From Haliclystus octoradiatus (taxonomy: Eukaryota; Cnidaria; Staurozoa; Stauromedusae; Haliclystidae): DNA of 64,000 nucleotides. The stretch is from the NCBI GenBank assembly GCA_916610825.1, contig OU744452.1, positions 13,620,110 through 13,684,109 of the forward strand, given 5' to 3'. A program made the position numbers and the translations under genes. A model generated the notes under the pieces. It saw nothing but the letters and a program-made list of their open reading frames with translations. It did not search any database and was not told where the DNA came from. Shown piece by piece: positions 1,802 through 57,250 of this stretch (position 1 is the stretch's first letter; every line of letters begins with the position of its first letter).

Positions 1802-2820
1802 TCATCAGCCGTCGTCAGTACTGCTCAGTGAACAAGGGACTGACTTAGCGTGCTATAACTAATTCGTCACATGAAAAATACATCTATAACAATAATAATA
1901 AGAAAAATTGATGCTTTGTGAATTGCTCTTTTATATACACTTGTTCCTACCTCCGCCACCAATTTCCTCATTCTCGCTACTGCTTTCAGAGCTCTGACGA
2001 ACACTACCAGGATAGAAGGAGTCCAATTCGGTGTTTTTCTTTCATTTACATCCCATGTCTGGCAGTTGTAGAGAACAATTGGTAGGACATACACATTAAA
2101 GACCCTAACTCTGTTTGTACTTAATATGATATTTCCTAAGGCCATCAGCCGTCGTCAGTACTGTTCAGTGAACAAGGGACTGACTTAGCGTGCTATAACT
2201 AATTCGTCACATGAAAAATACATCTATAACAATAATAATAAGAAAAATTGATGCTTTGTGAATTGCTCTTTTATATACACTTGTTCCTACCTCCGCCACC
2301 AATTTCCTCATTCTCGCTACTGCTTTCAGAGCTCTGACGAACACTACCAGGATAGAAGGAGTCCAATTCGGTGTTTTTCTTTCATTTACATCCCATGTCT
2401 GGCAGCTGTAGAGAACAATTGGTAGGACATATACATTGAAGACCCTAACTCTGTTTGTACTTAATATGATATTTCCTAAGGCCATCAGCCGTCGTCAGTA
2501 CTGTTCAGTGAACAAGGGACTGACTTAGCGTGCTATAACTAATTCGTCACATGAAAAATACATCTATAACAATAATAATAAGAAAAATTGATGCTTTGTG
2601 AATTGCTCTTTTATATACACTTGCTCCTACCTCCGCCACCAATTTCCTCATTTTCACTACTGCTTTCAGAGCTCTGACGAACACTACCAGGATGGAAGGA
2701 GTCCAATTCGGTGTTTTTCTTTCATTTACATCCCATGCCTGGCAGTTGTAGAGAACAACTGGTAGGACATACACATTGAAGACTCTAACTCTGTTTGTAC
2801 TTAATATGGTATTTCCTGCC
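1802..2820 (-). repeat. Three tandem 340-bp copies of a LINE 3' end
   Basis: Three head-to-tail copies start at 1802, 2142 and 2482, exactly 340 bp apart, each opening with TCATCAGCCGTCGTCAG. Copies 1 and 2 differ at only a few bases (for example C/T near 1824 against 2164), so the duplication is young. On the minus strand each copy encodes the same peptide with the motif RVFNVYVLPIVLYNCQTWDV, the usual C-terminal end of a LINE reverse-transcriptase protein. The third copy continues into extra upstream coding sequence to 2990. Seen: repeats and peptide. Inferred: local tandem duplication after insertion. Confidence 0.85.
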
Positions 2821-2990
2821 AGGTAATGGTGATATTTTGAGAAAGCTGTATTTGCAAGCTGCTTTCTGTGTGCTATTTCTTGTTGAATGTCAATGAAGGA
2901 ACCTAAAACTTTCCATAGATTTTTTTGTTCTTCTGTTATTTGCTGCCTTCTCTCAGCCTTTTCCCCCATTTTCTTTCTGTTTGTTGCCAT
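2547..2990 (-). pseudogene. LINE reverse transcriptase C-terminal fragment
   Basis: An open frame of 147 codons contains LGSFIDIQQEIAHRKQLANT followed by RVFNVYVLPVVLYNCQAWDV. This matches the segment after the catalytic palm in non-LTR retrotransposon reverse transcriptases, in which an L-G-S-x-I-D and an R-x-x-x-N-x-Y-V-L-P-V-L-L-Y motif precede the C-terminal tail. No YxDD catalytic motif is present, so this is a 5'-truncated element end and not a functional enzyme. It is the source unit of the adjoining 340-bp tandem. The exact LINE clade is not resolved. Confidence 0.7.
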
Positions 2991-4185
2991 ATATACTTCT
3001 GTTAAGATTTAGATCCACTGCTGGTCATTAAAAACTAGATCATCAACATGTACAGCAATAATAGTTTGAGTATCGTGCTGTGTATCGGTTTTATTTGTTG
3101 TTCTTAACCGACTTGATCTCACTGAAATGTTAGATCAGACTTGACGATAGCAGGAGTCGCATGAGTATGACTGAGATTTTCCAGACAAATACTGGCACTT
3201 GATAGTAAATGTCGTACAATATGTAATTCACTGTAAATATGAATAAATACAAATCATTAATTACTATAAAATACAAAGCTAATCATAAATCTAAATATCG
3301 AACGTTGCGTTAATGCTTATCTCGGTCTGCTTCCCACGGACTCTGCTTTCTTCCTTCTTCTTTCTTCCCTCTTCTGTTCTTCCTTCTAATGATGCTCCCT
3401 CGATGACTGCTCGTATACTGACTTAAATTTACTGTTAACATATATTTATACTTACTTTCTATTTCTAAACATACAAAAATCTTTGTCATGATTCGATTGT
3501 TTACAGGATTAAGATTATTGTCTATGATTAATTGCTCATAAAATACTAGTTAAATACAAAGGATATAATTACGCGTGACGAGGTAAATAAACAAAGTTTG
3601 ATGCAATTTTATATGCTAACTCTAATATAAATTAACGGAACAAAATGTCTATTAAAGTTTCTCAAGACATGTATGAAACATCTTTCTCAACGCTATGATT
3701 AAGGTTATAAAAGGCTATAATGGAAAACTATAAATTCTATATAAAATGTCAATACTAAATGATGCTATAAATATAATGTTTATGATAATATTAAAAGTTA
3801 TTAGGAAATTCTATGCAAATGGACAGTTTATTTCCAACATATCGTTAATAACGAGTACGCAATTATCTGTCTTGCATTGCTCAAATCCAATACCTTTTAA
3901 AAATCCTCAAAGTAACGTATTTCAACTTTTGGGTGATTGTTTTAATCCATACTGTTGTACCATTATGTATGTTCAATTAATTAAATAATAATTATATTTA
4001 AAAGAAGTATAACTTGTAGATCAAGAGAAGCATAAAATACAACACCTGTTATTCATAACCGCACTTAGACTGATCTTTATGATCTACAACAACAACCATG
4101 TGCCCGCACCCTAACCGCAAGTCATACCACACATACATACATAGATATATTGAGATGATGTACAAGATTCTCTGTTCCAAGTTTT
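2991..4185. other. No gene recognised
   Basis: AT-rich spacer with a pyrimidine-rich run near 3330-3390. Open frames such as 3746-3988 have no recognisable motif and biased AT composition, so I do not call them. Confidence 0.45.
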
Positions 4186-34319: not shown

Positions 34320-34525
34320 TCCTGCGAACAATCTCACTTGGTTCATGATTTATTCATGAATTTCAGAAACTGTTCGCAAACCTCACAATCAGTTTATGAA
34401 CTTTTTCAACATTTACAAACGACTCATGAAATGGCATGCTTTTCATGAAACTGTTTGTGAACTATACAAACAGTTCATAAAAATCAGACAATAGTATTCA
34501 CATCCATGAACTATTTTCACAGGAG
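34320..34525. mobile_element. GTTCATGAAC-family element, copy 7
   Basis: Ends TCCTGCGAACAATCTCAC and GAACTATTTTCACAGGAG with TTCATGAA variants inside. It lies about 100 bp downstream of the TMEM230 stop, probably within its 3' UTR region. Confidence 0.7.
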
Positions 34526-36105: not shown

Positions 36106-37746
36106 TTATATGACAATATTTGTTTGAAAATATAGTTGTGTTGGATGGATTCGTATCAAATCCTGTTTAGTTGATTCCATTTGACATTTCTTACAAGTTA
36201 TTAATTGCTCATCAATTTTATTAACACATTGTCTACATATAACATGATCACATTTTAATTTGAAATACTGATTAGTTCTTGTTAATGTGGAACAAAATGC
36301 ACATGAATTTTCACTTTGTTGTTCGCTGAACTTATCCCTCTCCTGTGAATAATCCGTCCTCAAAGTTGTCTTTGTTTTCTTTAATGCTAAGCGAAGGCTA
36401 CTATCCAAATCATCTTGATGACTACGTTTGCTAGTATTTGCACCACTACTTGAATCAATAACAGCTTTTATCATTCTTTTCTGATGTGATGCAGGTATCC
36501 TTAGCACTCTATCTTTGGTTTGAATTCTATTTGTGCTAGAAACTTTATCAAGGTACTTTATTTCAGGTGATGCTACTGTCTGCATATTGAGCTCTGTTTT
36601 ATTTAAGGAAACATAACGATCAATTCTCAATTTCAAAGATATATTATTAACACATTTTGATTGTTCTCCAAACGGTGTACCAGTGAAAGGGTCTGACGGT
36701 GTTCTTCCCCATGAACGCAACATTGCAACATGATTCTCTAACGATTTGGAGTCAATATTATAACCAGATGGTAAAAGAACAGGCACCGTCATAATTTCAC
36801 ATGTTAATGGATCAAGAAACTCATTTGGAATTTCTTTTTCGTTCTTGTTGCTTATAACATCATTCATACATTGTTCATTTGAAGATTTGTTGTTGGACGA
36901 AGCAGTATTAGTTTGTACTAGTGTCCCATTCGTTGCGTCTTTATCAATAATTTGATCCAACGGATTGATTTTGTGTTGATGCGATTCGAAGCATGCTATA
37001 ACATGCTCACAATTTGTTTTAGACGGTTGCCCGTATACATATATTCCACCTAATGCAGCCATTGATGAGTTTGACATACGATAAATCTTTAAAATTAAAT
37101 GTGTGCAATTGTTAAGAAACGATGAACGATTTAGTTGTAGTTGTACCGTTCCTGGTCTATTAAAGTGTGATTGTACATCGTTAAGATTATTAGTTTTAAA
37201 TGGATTTGATAATATTAAGATTTTATGAGGTGAATTGATATCTGCTTGATATCTAGATATTAATTGACAATATCCGAATGGTAGTTGTTTGCGAGATTCT
37301 ATTGACAACATATCTCTATGATAAGACAAAGGGTAACAATCCTCGCTCAAGCATCGCTTATTGCATGTATTTTTCCTATAATTTGAATTCTTAGCTCTCC
37401 AGCTGTGAGCTTGACTTGCCATTCTTCCGCAAGAGTCATCTTTCATAGGCTTACATGAGCCTGAGTAAACTTTTTTAATTTCAGAAGCTGCAAATATATC
37501 TATTCCAGTACAAAGCTGGCGTTCACATGCAAGAATTACAACAATGCAGCTTATTTCAACGTAACAAGGAAGCTGAATAACTACTTCTGCTGGACCTTTA
37601 ACGAAATATTCTGCCATAAATCCTTTCCGTTTTGACTTCTGATCTAAATCTAGAAGATTTGCTGTTGAATAATCATCACGACAAACCACATCTTTCGAGA
37701 TCTTACAACCAAGCTTTGAAACTGCAAAATCAGTCAACTTTATCAT
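36106..37746 (-). CDS. UBOX5: U-box/RING E3 ubiquitin ligase UBOX5 (RNF37)
   Basis: Single-exon frame of 546 residues; human UBOX5 is 541. The N-terminal domain opens with CRDDYSTANLLDLDQKSKRKG and EYFVKGPAEVVIQLP, matching the RNF37 N-terminal module. Near residue 236 is IYVYGQPSKTNCEHVI, like the family's EVWGQPAKTCS. The U-box is at about 306-378 (IPNEFLDPLTCEIMTVPVLL, then WGRTPSDPFTGTPF), the E2-binding fold without zinc. A C-terminal RING-like zinc finger at about 482-521 (CAFC, CDHVICRQC, CKKC) and a basic middle with LALKKTKT complete the family layout. UBOX5 is a nuclear E3 ligase that works with UBE2-type E2 enzymes and associates with VCP. The start is supported by N-terminal similarity. 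A divergent unknown gene lies upstream. Confidence 0.95.
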   Translation of the reverse strand: MIKLTDFAVSKLGCKISKDVVCRDDYSTANLLDLDQKSKRKGFMAEYFVKGPAEVVIQLPCYVEISCIVVILACERQLCTGIDIFAASEIKKVYSGSCKPMKDDSCGRMASQAHSWRAKNSNYRKNTCNKRCLSEDCYPLSYHRDMLSIESRKQLPFGYCQLISRYQADINSPHKILILSNPFKTNNLNDVQSHFNRPGTVQLQLNRSSFLNNCTHLILKIYRMSNSSMAALGGIYVYGQPSKTNCEHVIACFESHQHKINPLDQIIDKDATNGTLVQTNTASSNNKSSNEQCMNDVISNKNEKEIPNEFLDPLTCEIMTVPVLLPSGYNIDSKSLENHVAMLRSWGRTPSDPFTGTPFGEQSKCVNNISLKLRIDRYVSLNKTELNMQTVASPEIKYLDKVSSTNRIQTKDRVLRIPASHQKRMIKAVIDSSSGANTSKRSHQDDLDSSLRLALKKTKTTLRTDYSQERDKFSEQQSENSCAFCSTLTRTNQYFKLKCDHVICRQCVNKIDEQLITCKKCQMESTKQDLIRIHPTQLYFQTNIVI

Positions 37747-38559
37747 ATCAAATATGATGGTATTATCAAGAGTGCATATTCCTTCTAGTAAGTAATCAAA
37801 CTGAAATAATTGCTAAACTTTACACACTCGTCCGCCATTCCCTCTGATGATACATGTAAATGTAAATTATATAAGTAGATTGGTGAATAGTCTTGTTCAC
37901 GCGGGAAAATGAAACCACGTTTTCGAAAATGAATCGTTTTGTTTACTTTATCGCTGTTTGTGAGTGTTTGTGGGGGTGTGTGTCTGCAATAACTTTGCTA
38001 GAAAGGAAATTGTGAACTCAGTTGCCAATTGATGTCTTGATAAAAAAGATTACGTTGTTGCCTTAGGACAGTAAGCGAACATCGGATTTCTTGCTAGGTG
38101 CTAGGAGTCATTTTTAATGTTGTATGTTTAGACACAGCTAGCATTTATTTTGAGATGCGAATTTATTGATTTTGACTTCACCCTATACTATAGTCGGGTG
38201 TACTCTGCGTTTTCGGAGCGTACTTTGTAATTCGAACATTCTCAGCTACTCTGATAGATAGGCATGTTTTTTTAGTGTGGCTATTAAACTCAAACACTGA
38301 GCAAGCTTCAAATGTTTGCAAAACATTACCGTTACTTTACTTGTTTGGTTAAGACGTTGAAAGGACACATACTACGTGTCGTACTGTTGCCTATACAGTA
38401 TAAACTATACAGTTCATGCTATAAACTATGGCAGGGAAAAAAACCCTCGTGTATTTTCTATATGGCTTTATAATATATCTAATGTACTTTTATATGATTT
38501 TCTTACGGGTATGAAATGAAACAACAAATATACACATTTGTTTGACAGGAGTCACACAA
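37747..38559. promoter_or_regulatory. Shared upstream region of UBOX5 and the 38.6-kb gene
   Basis: About 800 bp between divergent starts. An acceptor (TTTGACAG, ending about 38528) shows that the plus-strand gene has a non-coding first exon in this interval. No specific promoter element was identified. Confidence 0.35.
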
Positions 38560-41617: not shown

Positions 41618-44600
41618 CTATGATAAAAACGTTCCTGATTTGATCAAAGAGCTTGTTGTACCCATGGAAATTAGTTTTGATTTTACGTGCGAAGCCATTG
41701 CTTGAACAGGACGATCATCACATTTCACAGTCAACATAACCTTAAAATAATGGAATCATAATATATTAATATCAATGGAATCATAATATATTAATATCAA
41801 TGGAATGTTTTAGTGCGAAATCTTGAAGATTAGATCTGAAAATCATGTAGGATCGACCAAACTCGTATAGTTTGAGTTGACGATTCTACGTCGTTTTCTG
41901 GATTATAATTTTTAAGAAAAAATTTCATATTTGCGCAAAAAGATGTGACTGCTATATGCTTCTTGATGTAATACGTATGGCGCTTCAAATAGTTTCTCTA
42001 AGATTATCAAAAAATAGTAGTAATCGAGACGCTATATATCACCCTACCCAATAGGTCTCGATTGTCAATGCGCAACGGTGCGCCGCAGCTACTCACAATG
42101 AAATTCCCTCTTGACCATTCCATCCACCATCCTCAGATGGTACTCATTTGATGATTCTAGATAAAGTAAAGGCGGAGTTGACCATAGGGGGATTTGAACT
42201 GAGCCACAGTCGATCAGATATGATTATAGTTGAAGTTCGGTTGCTCTGCTATCTGAGCTAACCCCCTATAAAGATTATCAGTTAGCTATTTAGTATCGAA
42301 TGGGGCTTCTACGAAAATGGAAATCTGAACTCCTAATCATTCTTTCTTTGCCCAAAACGACATATGGAATTGAAAGTTAAGGTGAAATTGCCATAATCTG
42401 AAAATGTTGCAGACAGGAAGTAGGATATTGCGACATATCTCTGTGATTCGAGAATTGCACCCTTAATTACCCTTTCAAAATCGTTTTTGAATTGAAACTT
42501 AGATGCAGTTCTACCATTAAGTTGATTGTTTATCACATTCTCGAAGTCAAATGGGGGACCCCAGACCATGAACCTTGAATCTTATAGGGGACAATGACCT
42601 TCAATGGTAAACTTTGTTGCCGCCTGTTGCTCTCGCATCCTTAGTATAAAGCAAACAACAAAATCGAATGCCAACATCGTGGAAACGTCCTGGGAAACGC
42701 ACCATGAACCTTGATATGTGTATACTGTAAGAAATGATCTTCAAAGTAGCGTGATTATTTCGAGTGTAGACTTGGGATTGATAACGATCGTAGATAGTGA
42801 AGTAGTTAAACTGTGAAAGGATAGTTCACCTCTAATTTATCTGTGTCAATTATTTTGACGTCTTTGCTACCACTACCAGCTGCTGCAATTAAATGAGAAT
42901 CGAGAAATCTCCCACAGTAGAGAAACTCTCCTTTCAGTTCAGGAGAAGGAAATGGAATATTGTTGATTAGTCTGCCAGTTCCAAAATCCCATAGCTAGAA
43001 ATAAATTACACAACCATTGAAATAATACATCATTCTTATAATTAACGCAATGTCCAGCCAGTGTCTTATACAACATCGTTCGGTGCCTGTTTACCTGTTG
43101 CCTAGGAGCAGTTAGGCAATACACGGTAGACATTTAGCCTGATCGTCGTCGTTAACATTAATTCATAGTTTCATTGAATTGTATTTGATTTTGTCAAATT
43201 TGACCAAGTTATGAATCATAAAATGAATGTTGTATTTTTCATGGTCAACATAGGATGTTTCAGGGGACGGTTCTGGTATATATGATATCGTCCAGCCCGA
43301 CCAGCCGGAGGCCCAGGGGATACTTTCGTATGGGCGGTCTGGCTATCCTGATACCAATACGGCTTTGTAAAATTTGCATCTGAGTGCATATACCTGTAAA
43401 GATTCCGAAGCCTTCCAGGATGCAGTTACGATCTGATTACCATACAAATCAACACCATCTCCACACACGTATGGTCCATGGATTGTACGCACAACATTTT
43501 GCACACGGACATCCCAAATCTATGCAGACCAAAACAATTATAGAATAAAGTCATCATATAAAAAATTACTATTGATGATCATATAGATTCATATGATACA
43601 GTTTTGGGATCGTCTCTAAACTTGAGTGGAATAAGTTCAGGCACGAGAGTGAAGATCACTCAAAAAAGAGAAAATTAAACTGCTAAAACAATACAAAATG
43701 TCAGTTTATTTGTTTCACAGCTTGTAGAAAACGAGGAAATATCTCATGACTGTAAAATTGAATGGGCCCTATATAACTTACATGATGCTGTACACTATTT
43801 CTTTCCTAGTAACGTGTATCCAGATGTGGCGAGCATACGGACCCAAAAGCATTCCAGCAAAATTACCATCTTTAATAATTTGCAAATCGCAACCACTAAC
43901 ATCATGGAAGGGCATTACCTCGTACATTATAACAAAAATAATCTATATATAGGCATATAGTGATTGTTGACGATGTTCCAAATATTCCATGCAAAAAAAC
44001 GAAAATATGACCTGATACATGCAGTGTTGATCGTGTAGAGATCATCTTTCCTCTATAGGAAATGTTGAATTATTCGAACATACAACGTAGATTTTGGTCA
44101 TATTGGAATACATCAGCGTTCAGTTTCTTACCTTTAAAGAATGGTCCCAACCAGCAGTTACAAAGTTATTTTTATCCTCTTGATGGAATCGCAAAGCGAA
44201 TACTTTACAGCCATGACCTCCAGATGATGCAAGTGGATCACTAACAAAAACGAAAAATACTCATCATTTCTGGAAATCATTTGCATTGTTGTTTTTACTT
44301 TCGAATATCAAGTGAATTAATACATATATAGATATATATATAGAGTATAAAACAGAGACGAGGTAAAGCCTTTTCCGTAATTCGATTTATAACCGAACCC
44401 GAGTATCACCGTCTGAAGATCGCAATAAAAGCGTGAAACTCCGAGTTACGGAAAAGGCTTTGCCTCGTCTCTGTTTTATACTCTATATTATGCTCTGTCC
44501 TAAAAAACATTGAGCACTTTCATATACATGTGTGTATAAGAGTTCACACTCAATGCAATTAATTTTTTTAATTAATTATTATTATATAGATATATATATA

Positions 44601-47600
44601 TATGATAAACATAAACAAATTCACTATAAAGGACAAACAAACCAGGAAAAACATGGATACAACTTTGTATTTCTGATCGGAACGCATTGGAGACACTAGC
44701 CACTAATCAAATAATAAACTTTTAAAACATTTTCATGACTTTCTTACTCATAATTTAATATAATTTAAATTAATGTAAACTTCTGATCAAATTCGAAATT
44801 CTCAAATGTGATATCAAGTTCGAACTGCAAGATCGATTGGGTTTTCGCTTTGCTGATATAGCGATCTGGCGTCATAACTCTAAACCAATCAGATTGATCT
44901 AATCGAATTTGTTATTTTACAATTAGATATGGTAACTCTATATATTTGAAGTATCCTCCCCTTTCGCGGTAGGGAATACGACTTTTGAAAAGGATCTGGA
45001 AAATGTTGACTTATAAAGCTCTTGAGAAAGATATATAAGTTAGAAGAATGATGGAACACAATCCAAAATAAATATATGCCATAAGTTGCTTGTTTAAGTG
45101 ACTTGTTTAAAAGTGACAGTATTCATCAGATAACTAGCATTTTGAGTTGATCGAGAATAAATATCAGAACCATTATTATCTTACATTTCGATGTCATCGA
45201 GATCACTCCCTTGGAAGACATTTCTAAGCTTTGACGTTTCTGTATCGTATAAACGAATCTTTTTATCCTGTACAAAAAATATGATTGGTATCCTTATATA
45301 TAATGAATGTGATATAAAATATCGCGTAAACATAAAATTACCTATAATAATAACTAAAATCGCAAAGCTTAATTGGAACTGACCAACAGAATGAAAAGGC
45401 AACAAGAAGTAGACCGCTAAGTTCATCAGAAGATCAGCTTATCTCTCTGGGTGTGAGAAGGCTGAAAGAACGGCCAGTAGGTGTACTGTGTTGTGAATTC
45501 AAGGCAATCATAACTCAATCACCTAACTATTCAAAACTACGAATGAAAATTGAGAACAAAATATTTGTTTACTTTCGTTTATCTGATAGTACCTAATACG
45601 ACTAATGAAAGAGGGGATACTTTCCAGGAACAAGGAGTTGGTAAAAAAACTTTTTTTTTTTCAAATATGCATCAAAATTAGGAAGAATTTAAGCTTCTTG
45701 GTAAACTTTTGATAGCAAACGGCAATGGTATAACAGTAATTGTTTTATTTCTTATTTCGAAAAACGTTTAGGCTATGATCATTGGCAATTTCTAATTTAA
45801 GTCTCATTAAAAACTTAACATCCACAATTTAATTTAATTTGTGATACATACTGTAGTTGCAATGTAATGTTAAATTGTTAATGCGGAATAACTATACCGC
45901 TAATTCAACTGTGAAACACGCAAACTAACGAGATTGATCAAACAGACGGAGGAGAATCATGGTCTTCAAGGGATGTGACTGGACGACAAGCCAAAAGATC
46001 TTTACTGTTCTATAGACTTATATACTTAGTACAAAGAGTCTGCAAGGTGGCTAGTGGGTCAAAAGTCTCAACAGAGCTGCTGTCGTCACCATTGGGTCAA
46101 TAGGACTGTTGTTTAGGCAAGTTTTCAAGGCAATAAAAAGTTATATTTAGCTATTTTACTGCCAACACAAGGGCTCAACAAATGTGGGGATCTTGTTATT
46201 GTAGATCACATAAGGCTAAAGAAAATCCAGAAAAAAGTTGATATTTTTTATTTATAGGCCCGCAAGCCTCAACAAAAAATCCAGAAGAAACATTTGATCT
46301 GAGTGGCTACATTTCTTGTTATGTGTTTGATCTTTCACTGGCCAACACCAAGTCAAACTCAGTCAACACAAAACTCACTGGCCAACAAAAGGGGATCAGA
46401 TGCAAGAATAGGAAACACAGGATTGCAGAACACCGTACCTTCCCTGTTGTTGCAAAGCATGTTCCATCATTAGCGAAATCCATTGCACTGATTTCATTGC
46501 TTTCTTCATTGATGGAATCAACACACCGAAATACATCCATGTTCCATATGGAAACAGTACCATCGCTTCCTAAATCATAATAATTGTAAATTGATTAAAG
46601 CATAGGACATTACAAAATGTTTGTTAAAGGCTCATGAACTTTTCATAATTTGTTCAACAACTTTTTATAGAAGCTTGATGAGCTGGTACTGTAAGGAATT
46701 GTTTATAAACAATTCATCAATGACAAGCCTATTTATCTAAGGATGGCAGATAATAATAATAATAATAATGAATTTATATAGCGCCATTTCTTAGGATAAT
46801 CCAATGGCGCTTTACAATATAGTTAATTAGTATCGAGAAATTATAATAGAACCCCCATAATAGGTATGAAGGGTATATATCAGTTAGGTATATTATAACA
46901 ATATATTATCTTGGTGAAATCTTAAATCTTAATTTATACAATCTTTGAACACTAGATTACTTTATTGAATATTTTTTTTTTTTTTTTTTCACTGTTGACT
47001 ATGCTTTGACTAATACTAAATGTAAATTATCAAATAATTAACTGAGCTTCATAAATTGTAAGCCTCCTTAAACAGGAAGGTTTTAATGTTCGTTTTAAAC
47101 TCAGAAAGAGATGTACAACTACGGATGTCAATAGTTAAACTGTTCCATAACTCGGGGGCCATGTAACAGAATGCCCGGTTTCCGTACGTTTTTAAATTGC
47201 ATTTTGGCTGGACAAGGAGCTTCTTGTCTGCTGATCGTAACGCTCGAGTAGGCTTGTATAAATGTAACAATTCCTGGATATAAATTGGTGCCATATCATT
47301 CAATGCTTTGTAGGTTGTAATTAATATTTTAAATTTTATCCTTTGAGCGACAGGAAGCCAGTGGAGATCTACTAGAACAGGTGTTATGTGGTCGTATTTT
47401 TTAGTTCTAGTGAGCAGACGTGCAGCCGAATTTTGAACAGATTGTAATTTTTGTAATTGATTTTTTGCAATGCCTGATAATATAGTGTTACAATGATCCA
47501 ATCTAGATGTTACAAAGGCATGTATTAGAATTTTACAGTGTTTGAAGGAACAGTCCAGATCGAATTGCATTAATTGTGAGTAACAGCGGCTTATCATTGT

Positions 47601-50600
47601 AGATTGACAATCGAGGCCTATCTGCCATGAAAAATTGTTGAAATGATCTGCAGTGTCGCGGTTGAGATCAATATAGAGCGTTTGCCCTTAGCGAAAAGAG
47701 CCCCCCCCCCCCTAGAAATAGAGGAGTGGTACAGGTGCCTTCGGCAGGGCGATACCGTCTCAATTACTTTATTATCAATGAACACTAGTTCATAAACAAT
47801 TTTAAAAGAGGTTCATGTTGAAAACATTTGAGATTCATAAACTAAATAATTAGGATTTCAAAGATTCCGATACGATTTGTAACTACAAGGCAGTATGCTC
47901 ATCCAAATGATTTGGAAGTATGAGCATTCGAATTTTGACGTCTTAAAACGGTAATTGTAAAATAATCCTATACATGAAAATTGACGACATTAAACCCTCA
48001 TTTAACGAATATTCCATCAACAATATCAAATTATTAGCTTACGTTGATAATTTTCAAGAGTTATTCATATCAATTGATGAATCCCATAAAGGGTGTGTAA
48101 TGTGATGTGTATGTGAGTACTTGTATATTTGATATGATTGGTTAAATAGTATCACATGTCCAGGGTCAGAAGAAAGGTTCATCCTTCTGGAATCAGAGAA
48201 GCGTTTCAACAATTTCTTCTGAACTCTTTGTTGAGGTTTGACCAATAAATCGTCAAAATATCAATTTTCTTCTGATTTGCTGTAGTCTTCCGAGATCTAC
48301 GATTCCAGGATTCCTACTTTCCTCAGACTCTGCACAAGTTTCCTGATTAACATTTAATTTTTCTGTCATACTATTAGTGATCAATATTTGAAATCAAAAT
48401 ATTGCCTCGAAATGGCTTGACTGATCATCTCAACTAGAAACTCAGTGTCACTAATAACACAGTTTACTCACATTCTACAGTTTAAATATAAATTTGATAA
48501 TTTTAAGATATATTTGTATTATATCTAAATAACAGTCCAATCTTATGCAAGATATCAAGCATTAATTATAAAATCATAGCATTATGTTTGTACCTGAGTT
48601 TACACTCACTATAATTCATTTTTAATTTATTATTATAAAACATAGCATAAAATAATACCTGCAGCATATAGCATATTCTTTGTTGTGCAAGGGTAAAATT
48701 TCACAGATGTTACGGGAAGACCAGATTTTGAGCCACTATGAAGCCTTCTTGTTCTTTCCAATGCAGGCATGGAAAATAACTAAATGAACATAACAGTTAA
48801 CTTTCACAATTAAAACGAAATAGTAGGGCCAGCCCAGACTCAATTTTCAGAGCTAGACTAAAACAGTAGATACCCAAATCCAACAAGGAACATTAGCCTC
48901 TTCCATGGCTCCACATCCATTTTAGATTCTAGCTCTTGCAGAACATGATTATCATGAACAGTTCATAAGTTCACAATCATTCCATGCATAGTTCATGAAT
49001 AGTTCTCGATATGGTATCTACATCTATAGAGCAACCATTAAACGGTCAACGGTGGTTCTTCTAACAAACATTTTCAGAAAAACTTTCCACAATTTCATAA
49101 AATATAGTTACATAAATTAATACAACAATACACACTAGACTGACATGATAGGCTACATAGCACCTACGAGAACAGTTTATCTATGTTCTATATAGGTCAA
49201 TCTTCATGAACTGCCCAAGAATGGTGCTTGAACAATTCATGAAAAGAATCATCAAATCATCAGGTCATTTCATATTCATGAATCTTTTACAAACTGTTCA
49301 TGAGTTTATGGATGAACAGTAAGAGAACTGTTTACAAGTTGTTCATGAACAGTTCATAAATAGTTCACAAGGTTCATGGACTGTTCATGAACTAATTAAA
49401 ATTTTTTCGCAAAGGGGGTAGCCTTTAGCAAAATTATGTTTTCATACCTGCAATCCTCCACTACCCAATCCTACAGCAAGCAATGTCGCATCATCATTGT
49501 ATTGTAGACAGAATATTCCATTTTCATCTCCAATTTGAAGTTGTTTAATGTCTGTCAGGGACACTGGGTTCTCACTGAGAAATGATAATACAGTCAAACC
49601 TGTTATAACGGTCATTTCTATGCATCGTCAACTCTGTCTATAGTGGCCACTCTATGTCAAAAATAGTATTTTTATTGACACAAAACAAATCTCAAAAGTT
49701 TGGAATTTTTAACCATTATGTTGAATCCTGTAGATTTACCATGAATTTTTGAATAATTGAATTTGTACTTAATATTTCTTATTATTTCCTGGTCTATGTA
49801 TTTCGTGTAGATGTTAATTGTTTAATTGCTTAAAATAATATTTTATCATATCTGTTGTGATTGTCACAAGATGTTTGCTCAATCACATAAAATATATATA
49901 TATCTTGTAAATCTAAATCAGCGGTAGAACACATTGTGCATGCGTCATTTGTTATTATATATTGTTAATTTGTATTTATTGTCACTTCTTCAAATCAATC
50001 ACTCATTGGTGAAACATTAAATTTACATTTCTGAAGTCATATTCTATTTTCTGTCTCCTCGACACTGACCCTACGGACTCACAAATTCTTTGTGTTCTCT
50101 TTTGAAATGTAATTTGTAAGAATTTTATTCAAATTCTATTTAATTAAAAAATTAACCATCCAATAAATGAAAAAAAAAACAGATCATTGTAGTGAAATTG
50201 ATTTGAAGCAATTCCAGACATAACGTAATTAAGACATAGGTACCTAGCCTAACACATTAATGATGATGTTACAAGTAACATTCTAGTGGAAGTGAAGCTA
50301 TACAGGTCATTCAGTTGAACTCTCTTTGATATCCCACATTCATGGCCATCAATCGTGGGGTGACACTTCCTCTATAGAGATTTTTAAGAAAAATCCCAGG
50401 CAATTTGAAAGGGAAAATCGCAAAATCGAGCAATATTGAAGGTACCGATTCTGAAGTACTGAAGCTTCCAGTTGCACAAATGCCACGCCCACTTGTCAGG
50501 AAATATCACAAATGCTTCACAAGTCAGGAGTATGTAGTTACGACCGTGCCGAGGTTGCATGATATCTCAATACTCAATCAGTATTTGCTTTCTATTCATC

Positions 50601-53325: not shown

Positions 53326-53719
53326 TACGAGGTAAGCAGAACATAGCTTCTTTCCTGATGAGTCGCCGATGATCGTGGCCGATGATGAAAATATTTTTTA
53401 TAGTTTAGTATATTAAAGTCATTAAACTGATATAGAAAGCTAGAAAGTAGAACATGTGGAATTGTTAAAAAGAAGGAGTTAGTATTTTGGATTTTAATTT
53501 AATGTCTGGAATTTGCTATATTTAATTGAAAGTCGTGCTTCATTTGACTATAGTATTTGAAGTCGTATAAGTGTAGAAGACAAGTTTCATTTGTAGGCCT
53601 AGCGGCTAGCTTTTAACAAGTTTTTTACTTAGCGGTAGTCGTAAGCATTAAAATTCTACCACATAGAGGCATACTACGATCGCTTTCTGGATTAATCCTT
53701 CGTTTTCGACTTGTAAAAT

Positions 53720-54850
53720 ATGGCAAATGAAGCAACTCCAAAGGAAACATTCCAGGATGGATATGGTGATTATAAAAGTGATTTGAAAGCACACGAAGAA
53801 GAAATGCGTCATTTTCGTAAAGTAATTGATTCTTTTCTGTTCTATAAATCAAGCGCAATGAGAAAATGTGATCGTAGAGAAAAGGATTTTAAAAAACTCA
53901 ATGAAAAACACAAAAAAATGATTCCAAATTTTCTTTCACATATTGAAAATTGTAGAAAAGCAATTGATGCCAACTATGATTTTCTTCAACTGATTGTAAA
54001 TGGTACGGCTGGAATGTTCCAAAATATGGAAAATTCAAATAATCAAATGCATGAATTCAACACACTTAACCCATTAAATAGTAGCGATATGGATCGCGTA
54101 AGAACAACAATTATTCAATTTGTAAGGGATTGGTCTACTGAAGGATCTTCAGAACGTAACTCAACATATGGTGTTATACTTCATGAACTTGAAAAATTAT
54201 ATGCATCTGAAAACAAAAAAGAGGTATCAGTTCTTGTCCCTGGGGCAGGTCTTGGCCGATTAATGCATGAAATTGTACGTCGTGGATATAGATGCCAAGG
54301 AAATGAATTTAGTTTACACATGTTATTTGCATCAAACTTTATCTTGAATCGTCTTCCAACAGAACGCATAACAATATACCCATGGGTTCACCAAACATGC
54401 AACGTTATTAACAACATTGATCCATTAAGACCTATTGAAATACCTGACGTTGATCCAAGTGATATCCCAGACGATAGCGATATGTCCATGTCAGCTGGTG
54501 ATTTTTTAGAGGTTTACACAACAAAAGAAAGCTGGAATTGCATAATAACATGTTTCTTTATCGATACTGCACATAATGTAATAGCTTATATTGAACGAAT
54601 ACATCATATACTTAAAAATGGTGGATATTGGATAAATTTTGGTCCACTACTTTATCATTTTGCTGATCTACCAAATGAATCTTCATTAGAGTTACCTTAT
54701 GAAGATGTAAAACGAATTATTACTCAAGAATATAATTTTGATTTGTTGTATGAGGAGCATGGTTTGAAAACTAGTTATGTGGATAATTATAGATCAATGC
54801 TAAAAAGTGTTTATGATTGTGTCCTTTTTGTGGCTCAAAAGAAAAGTTGA
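53720..54850 (+). CDS. CARNMT1: Carnosine N-methyltransferase CARNMT1
   Basis: Intact single-exon frame of 376 residues. This is the N2227-type SAM-dependent methyltransferase that converts carnosine to anserine using S-adenosylmethionine. An N-terminal helical part (residues 20-110) is followed by DWSTEGSSERNSTYGVILHE, SAM motif I VLVPGAGLGRLMHE (171-184), GNEFSLHMLFASNFILN (194-210) and YPWVHQTCN (220-228). Next come DVDPSDIPDDSDMSMSAGDF (243-262), CIITCFFIDTAHNVIAYIE (274-292) and GGYWINFGPLLYHF (301-314). All are conserved blocks of the family. Vertebrate genes have several introns and this copy has none, yet it is undamaged. A close in-frame start just after the noisy leader supports the ATG. 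Tail-to-tail with vezatin (306 bp between stops). Confidence 0.96.
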   Translation: MANEATPKETFQDGYGDYKSDLKAHEEEMRHFRKVIDSFLFYKSSAMRKCDRREKDFKKLNEKHKKMIPNFLSHIENCRKAIDANYDFLQLIVNGTAGMFQNMENSNNQMHEFNTLNPLNSSDMDRVRTTIIQFVRDWSTEGSSERNSTYGVILHELEKLYASENKKEVSVLVPGAGLGRLMHEIVRRGYRCQGNEFSLHMLFASNFILNRLPTERITIYPWVHQTCNVINNIDPLRPIEIPDVDPSDIPDDSDMSMSAGDFLEVYTTKESWNCIITCFFIDTAHNVIAYIERIHHILKNGGYWINFGPLLYHFADLPNESSLELPYEDVKRIITQEYNFDLLYEEHGLKTSYVDNYRSMLKSVYDCVLFVAQKKS

Positions 54851-55156: not shown

Positions 55157-57250
55157 TCATTCTGTTAACATGCTATTATTATTTCCAGTGCCATTTAAAG
55201 TTTGCTCATCAGAAGAATCATTACTTTCAATAAATTCAGTACAATTCCCAGATGAAAACTCTTTACTACGTGCTGCAATAGCTTGTGAAAAACCAGACAG
55301 AAATAATGCTTTATGTTCTTCGTCAATATTAGCTTCATAATCATCTAGAATGTCATTACAATGACTTAATTCTTCGCAAATATATTCACTTTCATTTTCA
55401 TTGTTTGGAACTGGTAAAAAAGAAGTTTTGAGTCGATTATCATCAATACTTGGTTCCTTTGTTAGATCCTCTTCTACATCCTTCTTGAGCTCTTTCCAAT
55501 CAAATTTTATTAATCCAATATCATCTTGTTTGACACTAAGAATTGATTTAAGTTCATGAAGCAATTTAACAGATTGCCCTGTTGACATATCAACTATATT
55601 ATCTTCATTGCCATATTCACTAGTAAAAGTATTTTTTATGGAATCGGCTATACCTTCAAACATTTGATCTATGTTATCATTATATACACCATTGATACTT
55701 CCAACTATATTCCCATTTTGTTGTAAATTCAGCTCATTATCATCAGAAATGTATTTCTTACCCTCTATCAATCTTGTATCTTCTTCAGTAATGATATTCG
55801 CTGTGATTTCTTCAAGACATATAGCAGAACTTTGAAGATCTCCGCGAACGGATTTTATAATCTGGATTAAATTGCATGATTGCTTTTCTTTTGATTCAAC
55901 AAATATATCGTTTACATCCAATGTTAGACTTCTTAGCTGAGAAATATATTTTAATGATGATTTCAAATGAAGTTCAGTGCTATCAAACAACTGTTCTAAA
56001 AACATTTCTTTTCGATTATTAAACTTGGGTTCATGTATAACTAAGGGCTTAAAGATCATTAATTGTGTCATTTTATATTCTGCCTGGAGGATCTCGATAC
56101 TGCCACTTATTTCCTCATACATATCTTTGATTAACCCAGGTAGTATTAATAACATTTCTTGCTTCTTTTTAACATCATTGTTAACCAGAAAATAAACAAT
56201 AATTGTATGTATAAACTCGTGATCTTGAGCTTTCTTGAGTTCTTTGATATCCCTGAGATCATTAAAAGATGCAAAATCAGCTGAGTTGTCATATAATGTA
56301 AGTTGATACTTCAAACTGTCTAGAGATTGCTCTGCTAGTAGTTTCCCTTCTTGAAATCCAGCATTTTGCTTTGAGATTAAAAGCATCAGCTTCTTCATCG
56401 TCACTCTTGTTTTCAAAAATCGGCGTTTTGAAGATAAAAACAGTTTCTTACGCAGTGAATGGCATTTTTCTGGTTCTCTGAACATCAGTGAGCTATTATC
56501 TAAAGTCGAATATGGAACATTTGGATGAAATTGAGTCATACCTAATGAGATCGCTTCAACTTCTTTCATGAAAATACTTAATTTATTAATCAATCTTCGT
56601 TCTTGTGATAACATATTCAGCATCATTTCAATTGAATTAGGAACATGCCGCATCAAAGCCAAACTAGAGTTATCTTGCCAAATTAAATAAAACAGAAAAC
56701 ACATAATTATTACCAGCATTCCAAGAACTTTCCATAGAATGAATAGACGAATTCCAAAATAATATATTATAGACAGCAACACAGCAGTTAAACAAGTTGC
56801 AATATGCCACCATATGTTTCCTTTGAAGAAAATATTATTCATTTTATCTTCTATCAAATTTGTGTAACGTCTCTCAATTTTATCCACATTAGTCTCTCCT
56901 GTAATTCGCTCTATAAATTCTTCATCAACAATTTCTGCTGATTTAAACACATTGATAATATGTTTTGAATACTCGAGAACTTTATCATTTCTTCTAACTT
57001 CTAGAGGATTAAGTGCATCAAATACCTTGGAAGCATTGGAAGAAATTGTTTTGAAGCAGTTCTGTCGCAGCTGAGCCATCCAAAAGTGTTTGGCTGATTT
57101 GTCTTCACAGTAAAGTGAAGGTCCATTTTGATCTCCATCTAATTTGGACGATTCATGACCCTCATAGGGATGAAATCCATTTTCAACTAGATAGTGAAAT
57201 AAAGGAGAGTTTGGGGCAATGTATTCTTCTTCTTCCTGTGTGATATCCAT
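55157..57250 (-). CDS. VEZT: Vezatin-like membrane protein
   Basis: Single exon, 697 residues (human vezatin 779). The N-terminus reads IAPNSPLFHYLVENGF, like the FENSPLYQYLQDLG start of vezatin. Two adjoining membrane helices lie at about 146-169 and 171-191. Then come MLSQERRLINKLSIFMKEVE and AISLGMTQFHPN (human RKALRLIQETEVISRGFT). A long helical middle is followed by ELKSILSVKQDDIGLIKFDW near 580-600 and the C-terminal FLSGFSQAIAARSKEFSSG (human FTAGLAAEVAARSLSF). Vezatin is an adherens-junction and ciliary transmembrane protein that binds myosin VIIa. Overall identity is low but the landmarks are in order. Vertebrate VEZT is multi-exon. Divergent from the gene at 57404, with about 150 bp between. 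Confidence 0.85.
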   Translation of the reverse strand: MDITQEEEEYIAPNSPLFHYLVENGFHPYEGHESSKLDGDQNGPSLYCEDKSAKHFWMAQLRQNCFKTISSNASKVFDALNPLEVRRNDKVLEYSKHIINVFKSAEIVDEEFIERITGETNVDKIERRYTNLIEDKMNNIFFKGNIWWHIATCLTAVLLSIIYYFGIRLFILWKVLGMLVIIMCFLFYLIWQDNSSLALMRHVPNSIEMMLNMLSQERRLINKLSIFMKEVEAISLGMTQFHPNVPYSTLDNSSLMFREPEKCHSLRKKLFLSSKRRFLKTRVTMKKLMLLISKQNAGFQEGKLLAEQSLDSLKYQLTLYDNSADFASFNDLRDIKELKKAQDHEFIHTIIVYFLVNNDVKKKQEMLLILPGLIKDMYEEISGSIEILQAEYKMTQLMIFKPLVIHEPKFNNRKEMFLEQLFDSTELHLKSSLKYISQLRSLTLDVNDIFVESKEKQSCNLIQIIKSVRGDLQSSAICLEEITANIITEEDTRLIEGKKYISDDNELNLQQNGNIVGSINGVYNDNIDQMFEGIADSIKNTFTSEYGNEDNIVDMSTGQSVKLLHELKSILSVKQDDIGLIKFDWKELKKDVEEDLTKEPSIDDNRLKTSFLPVPNNENESEYICEELSHCNDILDDYEANIDEEHKALFLSGFSQAIAARSKEFSSGNCTEFIESNDSSDEQTLNGTGNNNSMLTE

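Follow-up and report, generated by a model that had tools for sequence, protein, structure and literature searches.

What left a hammerhead-like ribozyme core inside a near-perfect inverted repeat is the question raised by a short segment of the 64,000-nt stretch of Haliclystus octoradiatus DNA analysed here (the window; C8:13620110-13684109 in a searched genome of 262 Mb and 33 contigs). The first-pass annotation, made from the letters alone, had pointed out both the repeat and the core, and both descriptions hold: the arms (44338-44384 and 44442-44488) are 47 nt each, 96% complementary and 57 nt apart, and every element of the core lies where it had been placed, within 44409-44451. The letters CCGT (44409-44412), CTGAAGA (44413-44419), GAAA (44435-44438), TT (44446-44447) and ACGG (44448-44451) follow the type I order CUGANGA ... 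GAAA ... UH. Stem II is formed by CGC (44421-44423) and GCG (44431-44433) with T-T at its base, a U-U opposition that leaves three pairs, and stem III (CT-CCG-AG, 44439-44445) has two. The suggestion that CCGT and ACGG form stem I stands in terms of pairing, with the addition that a second CCGT at 44375, inside the left arm, is distinct from that of stem I at 44409, and both compete for the single ACGG at 44448. The surrounding insertion measures ~250 bp, carries a tail at one end only, the opposite end being an inverted copy without one, is set in TA-rich DNA, and is flanked on both sides by an 18-bp repeat, TATATAGATATATATATA. Read as a remnant of a Penelope-like element (PLE), with its two outer ends called S1 and S2, the locus comprises the following features.

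44325..44342, no strand: probable target-site duplication, left copy, a direct repeat with 44583-44600 that overlaps the TA-rich element edge
44338..44384, minus strand: left arm, the ribozyme unit inverted and cut down to positions 41-87, tail-less and terminating at S2 (..ATACTCTATAT)
44385..44401, no strand: filler separating the inverted copies, varying from insertion to insertion
44402..44488, plus strand: 87-nt PLE ribozyme unit, found with 100% identity at many loci
44409..44451, plus strand: hammerhead-like core (motif scan, covariation, covariance model), predicted cleavage at 44447/44448
44409..44451, plus strand: stems of the core, I at 44409-44412/44448-44451, II at 44421-44423/44431-44433, III at 44439-44440/44444-44445
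44489..44583, plus strand: PLE tail of ~95 nt, the opening portion of the 5' untranslated region, terminating at S1 (..TTATTATT) with TA-rich target beyond
44583..44600, no strand: probable target-site duplication, right copy, a direct repeat with 44325..44342

A motif-plus-pairing scan of both window strands returned this core only, and none turned up when the window was simulated 60 times as a first-order Markov sequence. A covariance model trained on the genome's other hammerhead families (21 rows, none from the family of the window itself and one of them a close relative of that family) gave the core 56.6 bits (E 9.5e-15), the runner-up in the window reaching 12.7 bits. Motif scan and covariance model agree on one hammerhead in the window. 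The runner-up, at 34452-34493 on the minus strand, is a weak match (E 0.36) that probably arose by chance, and a candidate second hammerhead at 55788 (minus strand, inside a long reading frame) is unsupported by the stricter motif-plus-pairing scan and by the covariance model. The Rfam hammerhead models matched neither the window nor seven fetched loci; genome-wide, RF00163 gave no match among the 73 of 24,130 candidates scored, a result that is uninformative since the model was silent in all 14 control genomes too. The covariance-model search proposed at first pass thus came out negative with the Rfam models and positive with the model drawn from the genome's other families.

Copies of the motif are numerous. 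The search for further copies that had been proposed found the exact motif, with at most 2 mismatches, at 146 near-identical genomic places (reversed control, 0), and a wider pattern, CTGANGA-N8-18-GAAACT-N2-5-AGTNRC, which demands no pairing in stem I or stem II and prescribes RC for the 3' strand of stem I, has 6,441 matches versus 3 for its reversal. The fetched loci yielded 68 distinct motifs of the wider pattern, a set that comes from overlapping loci, includes point variants of one family, and had the core, the stem III letters and RC as requirements. At least 4 contiguous stem I pairs are present in 52 of the 68, chiefly CCGT/ACGG, CTGT/ACAG, TTGC/GCAA and TTGT/ACAA. The U-U at the base of stem II and the GUU site, regarded at first as weak points of the window core, are both usual in this genome: the former is found in 46/68 distinct motifs, and the cleavage-site triplet is GUA in 42, GUU in 24 and GUC in 2. 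An axolotl hammerhead is also described with U-U at this position (PMC7229834). One locus (L054:1545-1772) shows three hammerhead-like pieces in direct order, 86 bp apart, possibly a small retrozyme-like tandem array.

From the 68 motifs, 22 rows were hand-picked for an analysis of covariation, and changes on both sides were seen in 3/4 stem I pairs and 3/4 stem II pairs. The covariation score, the percentage paired and the number of cells changed on both sides each exceeded all 500 shuffles, and the covariation score was lower in every slid register; the other two of the five measures, pairs changed on both sides (61/500 shuffles as high) and further pair types (231/500), fell within the shuffle range. 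The stem II base pair fails in 17/22 rows, and stem III is uninformative here because it is invariant and set by the search pattern. Within these 22 chosen rows and by three of five measures, compensatory change supports stems I and II. Judged from sequence, the core is very probably a minimal type I hammerhead-like ribozyme with a tiny stem III and predicted cleavage, and the earlier reading of it as a hammerhead-like core with a very short stem III is supported. Contacts between loop I and loop II are said to be absent from PLE hammerhead variants (PMC6155905 and PMC7761336). The independent tests bear out that a hammerhead-like core escaping Rfam can be recognised from raw sequence.

The hairpin itself might instead be a microRNA-like structure with a chance likeness to a ribozyme. 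It is certainly stable (z-score -14.69, with 0/200 shuffles equally stable), and 7 of its 10 sub-threshold Rfam matches are to microRNA families, the best of them reaching 44.1 bits where 95 is required; the lowest E is 1.1e-8. All of the Rfam matches nevertheless lie below gathering scores and are accounted for by the hairpin shape, and the extreme stability of the fold is due to the arms rather than the ribozyme; moreover, the unit is dispersed along with a PLE, the wider motif recurs at thousands of places, and its stems covary in the tested rows, which leaves the microRNA explanation extremely unlikely.

The link to a PLE is made by longer copies. One locus (L013) has a tandem of two 87-nt units at a spacing of 2,519 bp, and the PLE frame lying between them is split over two reading frames, while the left inverted copy of the same locus encodes the same protein in an uninterrupted frame of 708 codons with its own unit behind. 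This frame contains YRDD, which we take to mark a reverse transcriptase (RT), and YIGLTEG..TRLANH, presumably of a GIY-YIG nuclease. Pfam and PDB sequence searches with the PLE frame recognised nothing, and we read the protein as a Penelope-like polyprotein with RT and GIY-YIG domains on the strength of these motifs. A hammerhead lies 122-218 nt downstream of 48/54 listed PLE C-terminal ends, or 46/52 once L049-L051, one place counted three times among the 54, are merged; the loci were chosen for containing hammerheads, and the count is not an unbiased one. The ends belong to a protein family of 39-100% identity, and those without a downstream hammerhead are in L016, L035, L059, L060, L066 and L075. 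The case with the widest spacing (218 nt, L071) places a 60%-identical PLE beside a main-family ribozyme and may be chance. The spacing is narrow, different PLE families each have their own hammerheads, and the ribozyme unit sits after the PLE stop codon in copies long enough to reach it. The Penelope-type affiliation suspected from the sequence is thus supported. No PLE protein stretch was found in the window at E 1e-5, and the spot is, with high probability, a short 5'-truncated insertion of an endonuclease-bearing PLE, its pseudo-LTR (pLTR) containing a minimal type I hammerhead for which catalysis is a prediction.

Motifs of this kind are known, and the window holds, in a truncated PLE insertion, what is very probably a genuine example of them. 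Minimal type I hammerheads in PLE pLTRs go back to Cervera and de la Pena 2014 and Lunse et al. 2017, as cited in PMC7761336 and PMC7229834, and such hammerheads, together with thousands of cnidarian type I motifs, are already published (PMC7761336, PMC6155905, PMC7229834). The type I order, conserved core, tiny stem III, pLTR location and thousands of copies per genome are shared with the motifs described there; in the present genome, U-U at the base of stem II predominates and the site is mostly GUA or GUU. Among cnidarians, the coral Acropora millepora has >6,000 type I motifs in 16 families, mostly of the minimal PLE type, and its canonical hammerheads reside in 220-240-bp tandem retrozymes, whereas the window hammerhead does not (PMC7229834). 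The layout of the window insertion is the published PLE layout: the family studied here has direct tandem pLTRs plus one inverted pLTR, with a tail at one end, as does Penelope of the bdelloid rotifer Adineta vaga, where PMC3846280 describes inverted pLTRs in head-to-head order, a tail on one of them and target-site duplications of 8-10 bp. Direct pLTRs with an adjacent inverted pLTR, the one-sided tail, the target-site duplication and the head-to-head order are common to both; by comparison with what is given there, the present family has TA-rich targets, a tail of ~95 nt versus 31 bp, and very short stubs.

Dozens of young, near-identical insertions make end points, strand use and template 5' ends readable. 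Two kinds of outer end recur. At S1, the tail stretch stops in most copies, with L013 and L019 running on past it towards the PLE frame and L009 ending early; at S2, the left inverted end abuts TA-rich DNA, and both ends are themselves TA-rich and resemble the target. Ends were counted in 47 main-family loci, consisting of the best DNA matches and of exact copies located in contigs C1, C2 and C4, and so not a random draw from the 146 places, and units falling short of position 83 of 87 were omitted from the end and edge counts. The 3' end is reached by 74 units, 37 of them ending at S1 and 37 at S2. Among 27 neighbouring pairs of units in these loci, 26 are divergent, i.e., head-to-head with the 3'-proximal ends outermost, one is direct and none is convergent; 25/26 divergent pairs join an S1 with an S2 (P 4e-7 under independent ends), the exception (L012) having S1 at both ends. 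Divergence also prevails among exact copies within 1.5 kb (17/18 neighbours divergent, 1 direct) and, for the wider pattern among the 100 matches listed, among neighbours at most 150 bp apart (13 divergent, 1 convergent); at up to 600 bp, the same listed matches give 18 divergent, 5 convergent and 6 direct (29 neighbours, families mixed). A literature search at the level of titles and abstracts found no report of so strict a pairing of S1 with S2, for which no priority is claimed.

Flanks are TA-rich at most ends of the 47 loci. Likely target-site duplications were recognised by eye in 4/23 pairs (L001, which is the window, L005, L058 and L071), most others being unreadable in (TA)n; the duplications flanking L005, L058 and L071 measure 15-16 bp and are not simple repeats, that of L058 having one mismatch. 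Both an AT-rich target and probable target-site duplication are thus seen in this family. The pairing of S1 with S2, the outermost position of the 3' ends and the likely duplications all fit what priming from two 3' overhangs predicts, and on these grounds we infer, at roughly even confidence, that reverse transcription was primed from both target strands. Precedent comes from the element Poseidon PAc of Anolis carolinensis, whose protein cuts and extends both strands and begins reverse transcription at two internal sites which delimit the tail, the element likewise carrying a hammerhead ribozyme (HHR; PMC11167929). AT-rich targets, internal RT start sites bounding a tail and tandem HHR units are shared with the present element; the choice of RT start site shows no difference between strands in Poseidon, a point against the present account, and its HHR cut site falls within the start of the open reading frame, whereas here the unit ends ~150 nt before the likely start codon (PMC11167929).

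Inverted arms would also arise if one cDNA folded back and copied itself, and self-priming on an antisense template has been argued for rotifer PLEs (PMC3846280). Rare variants are common to both arms of one insertion at several loci (L005, L008, L013, L017 and L019), which indicates that the arms often come from one source and which self-priming would explain too. On its own, however, self-priming gives neither two distinct outer ends in 25/26 divergent pairs nor a 15-18-bp duplication, and the arms of one insertion can differ, with 9 differences at L062. Self-priming is accordingly considered rather unlikely, and the account with two primed strands is followed below.

Template 5' ends can be read from the other side of each unit. 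Out of the 74 units, 38 extend into the PLE 3' untranslated region (UTR) and 36 are without it, and 25 of these 36 start at unit position 1 or 2. The first position (window 44402) marks a sharp 5' edge, AGTATC, and G stands immediately before 13/21 of the edges not preceded by T-runs, a count that drops 5 edges after T-runs, treats palindrome arms that are not independent, and includes one edge that belongs to a partial copy within L012, not counted among the 74. An extra G at this edge would be explained if the RNA began with a cap at the 5' edge of the ribozyme, and the sharp edge and extra G together suggest a capped transcript start at unit position 1. The L012 copy (L012:1177-1323) is a partial unit (positions 2-61) directly abutting a full unit, as would result from a template switch at the 5' edge.

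The frequency of units without PLE 3' UTR (36/74 in the 47 loci) and their sharp 5' edge are also what a stand-alone, non-autonomous element made of arms plus ribozyme would show, whether retrozyme-like or of foldback type. The first-pass annotation had described the element as seemingly reduced to arms plus ribozyme, a description that is half right: the locus is a truncated PLE end pair to which the ~95-nt tail (44489-44583) and the flanking TA-rich repeats also belong. Metazoan retrozymes are described as short tandem repeats of 150-450 bp (PMC7229834), and the present locus is not tandem; the arms and filler vary among stubs, while unit and tail are common to stubs and coding PLE copies. 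A stand-alone element is therefore very unlikely, and truncation of a PLE copy remains the preferred reading.

The predicted cleavage site is spanned by 73/74 units, a set that was selected by the ribozyme. To look for cut templates, the genome was therefore searched with the sequence 3' of the cleavage site, which returned 140 places, with 127 places also carrying GAGTT. Among the 100 matches listed of the 140, 11 are without exact GAGTT, eight of them fetched and read alongside L059: 3 begin exactly at the predicted cut (L080, L082 and L085), 1 begins at GTT (L079), 6 are point variants (including C1:14561019 and C1:25849001), and L081 is ambiguous, its match resuming a few bases upstream. 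A further search gave 156 places, with 9 of its 100 matches listed absent from the 140-place listing; 7 of these start at about unit positions 49-53, one is a point variant (L089), and one looks unrelated upstream (L094). Starts are scattered, with no clear peak at the cut site among the matches listed. Cut templates are at most a minority, and most templates are uncut at the predicted site, as the few starts there and the scatter of the others indicate, in agreement with PMC11167929.

A dead ribozyme is a further possibility: the fold might be inherited while the CUGAAGA/U-U/GUU family no longer cuts, the motif simply persisting within the pLTR. Consistent with a dead ribozyme are the 73/74 units uncut at the predicted site (in the ribozyme-selected set), the finding that Anolis PLE insertion is independent of HHR cleavage (PMC11167929), and the computed folds, in which the ribozyme structure was the minimum-energy fold in none of three contexts (the window copy, the L008 element and an 89-nt piece). 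In the L008 context the free fold has -41.1 versus -31.5 with the ribozyme enforced, and the 89-nt piece folds at -12.3; the energy models omit tertiary contacts and protein. Stem pairing is nevertheless retained across several families, and an HHR that was silent alone gained activity with its protein (PMC11167929). Loss of activity in this family thus seems unlikely.

In the window copy itself, the RNA forms a long hairpin of -85.8 kcal/mol versus -65.2 with the ribozyme pairs enforced, and the outer arms remain paired beyond stem I in the enforced fold. The idea that the flanking arms could extend stem I is therefore possible in principle and disfavoured by these energies, the left arm being an inverted copy of the 3' part of the unit that competes for ACGG. 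Since these letters can pair either with the left arm or within stem I, and the hairpin is the more stable in the folding model, the arms likely mask the predicted ribozyme in the window stub. Co-transcriptional folding could let cutting happen first.

The observations can be combined into a tentative account of integration. The PLE protein would make a cut in each strand of TA-rich DNA so as to leave 3' overhangs; from each of these, reverse transcription of PLE RNA would be primed, at S1 in one case and at S2 in the other; and joining of the resulting cDNAs would then give the head-to-head pair. At the window locus, the right cDNA would have reached the AGTATC edge, perhaps the capped 5' end of the RNA, and the left would have broken off 47 nt in. 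The probable role of the ribozyme in the living element is to trim multimeric transcripts. As the templates are mostly uncut RNA, ribozyme cutting and insertion may compete. Taken as a whole, the proposal that these insertions record PLE integration by a staggered cut, priming at S1 and S2, run-out at AGTATC and use of a mostly uncut template, with cutting in competition with insertion, is offered at somewhat less than even confidence. Such insertions bear on how PLEs integrate and on what the PLE ribozyme does.

Several features apart from the ribozyme locus were recorded. Within the window, an uninterrupted frame at 53717-54850 (plus strand) matches carnosine N-methyltransferase (PF07942, E 9.9e-100), and another at 36106-37812 (minus strand) has DUF5918 and U-box matches, a domain pair which we take to be that of RNF37/UBOX5. 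Two minus-strand frames, at 47049-47687 and 2547-3008, gave no Pfam match and read like fragments of non-LTR reverse transcriptases, which they presumably are. Outside the window, contig C33 (18,316 bases) is mitochondrial, with COX1 opposed to frames read as COX2 and ATP6, a gene layout typical of medusozoan cnidarians; a tRNA with anticodon TCA lies between COX1 and the COX2/ATP6 frames, and TGA is read as tryptophan.
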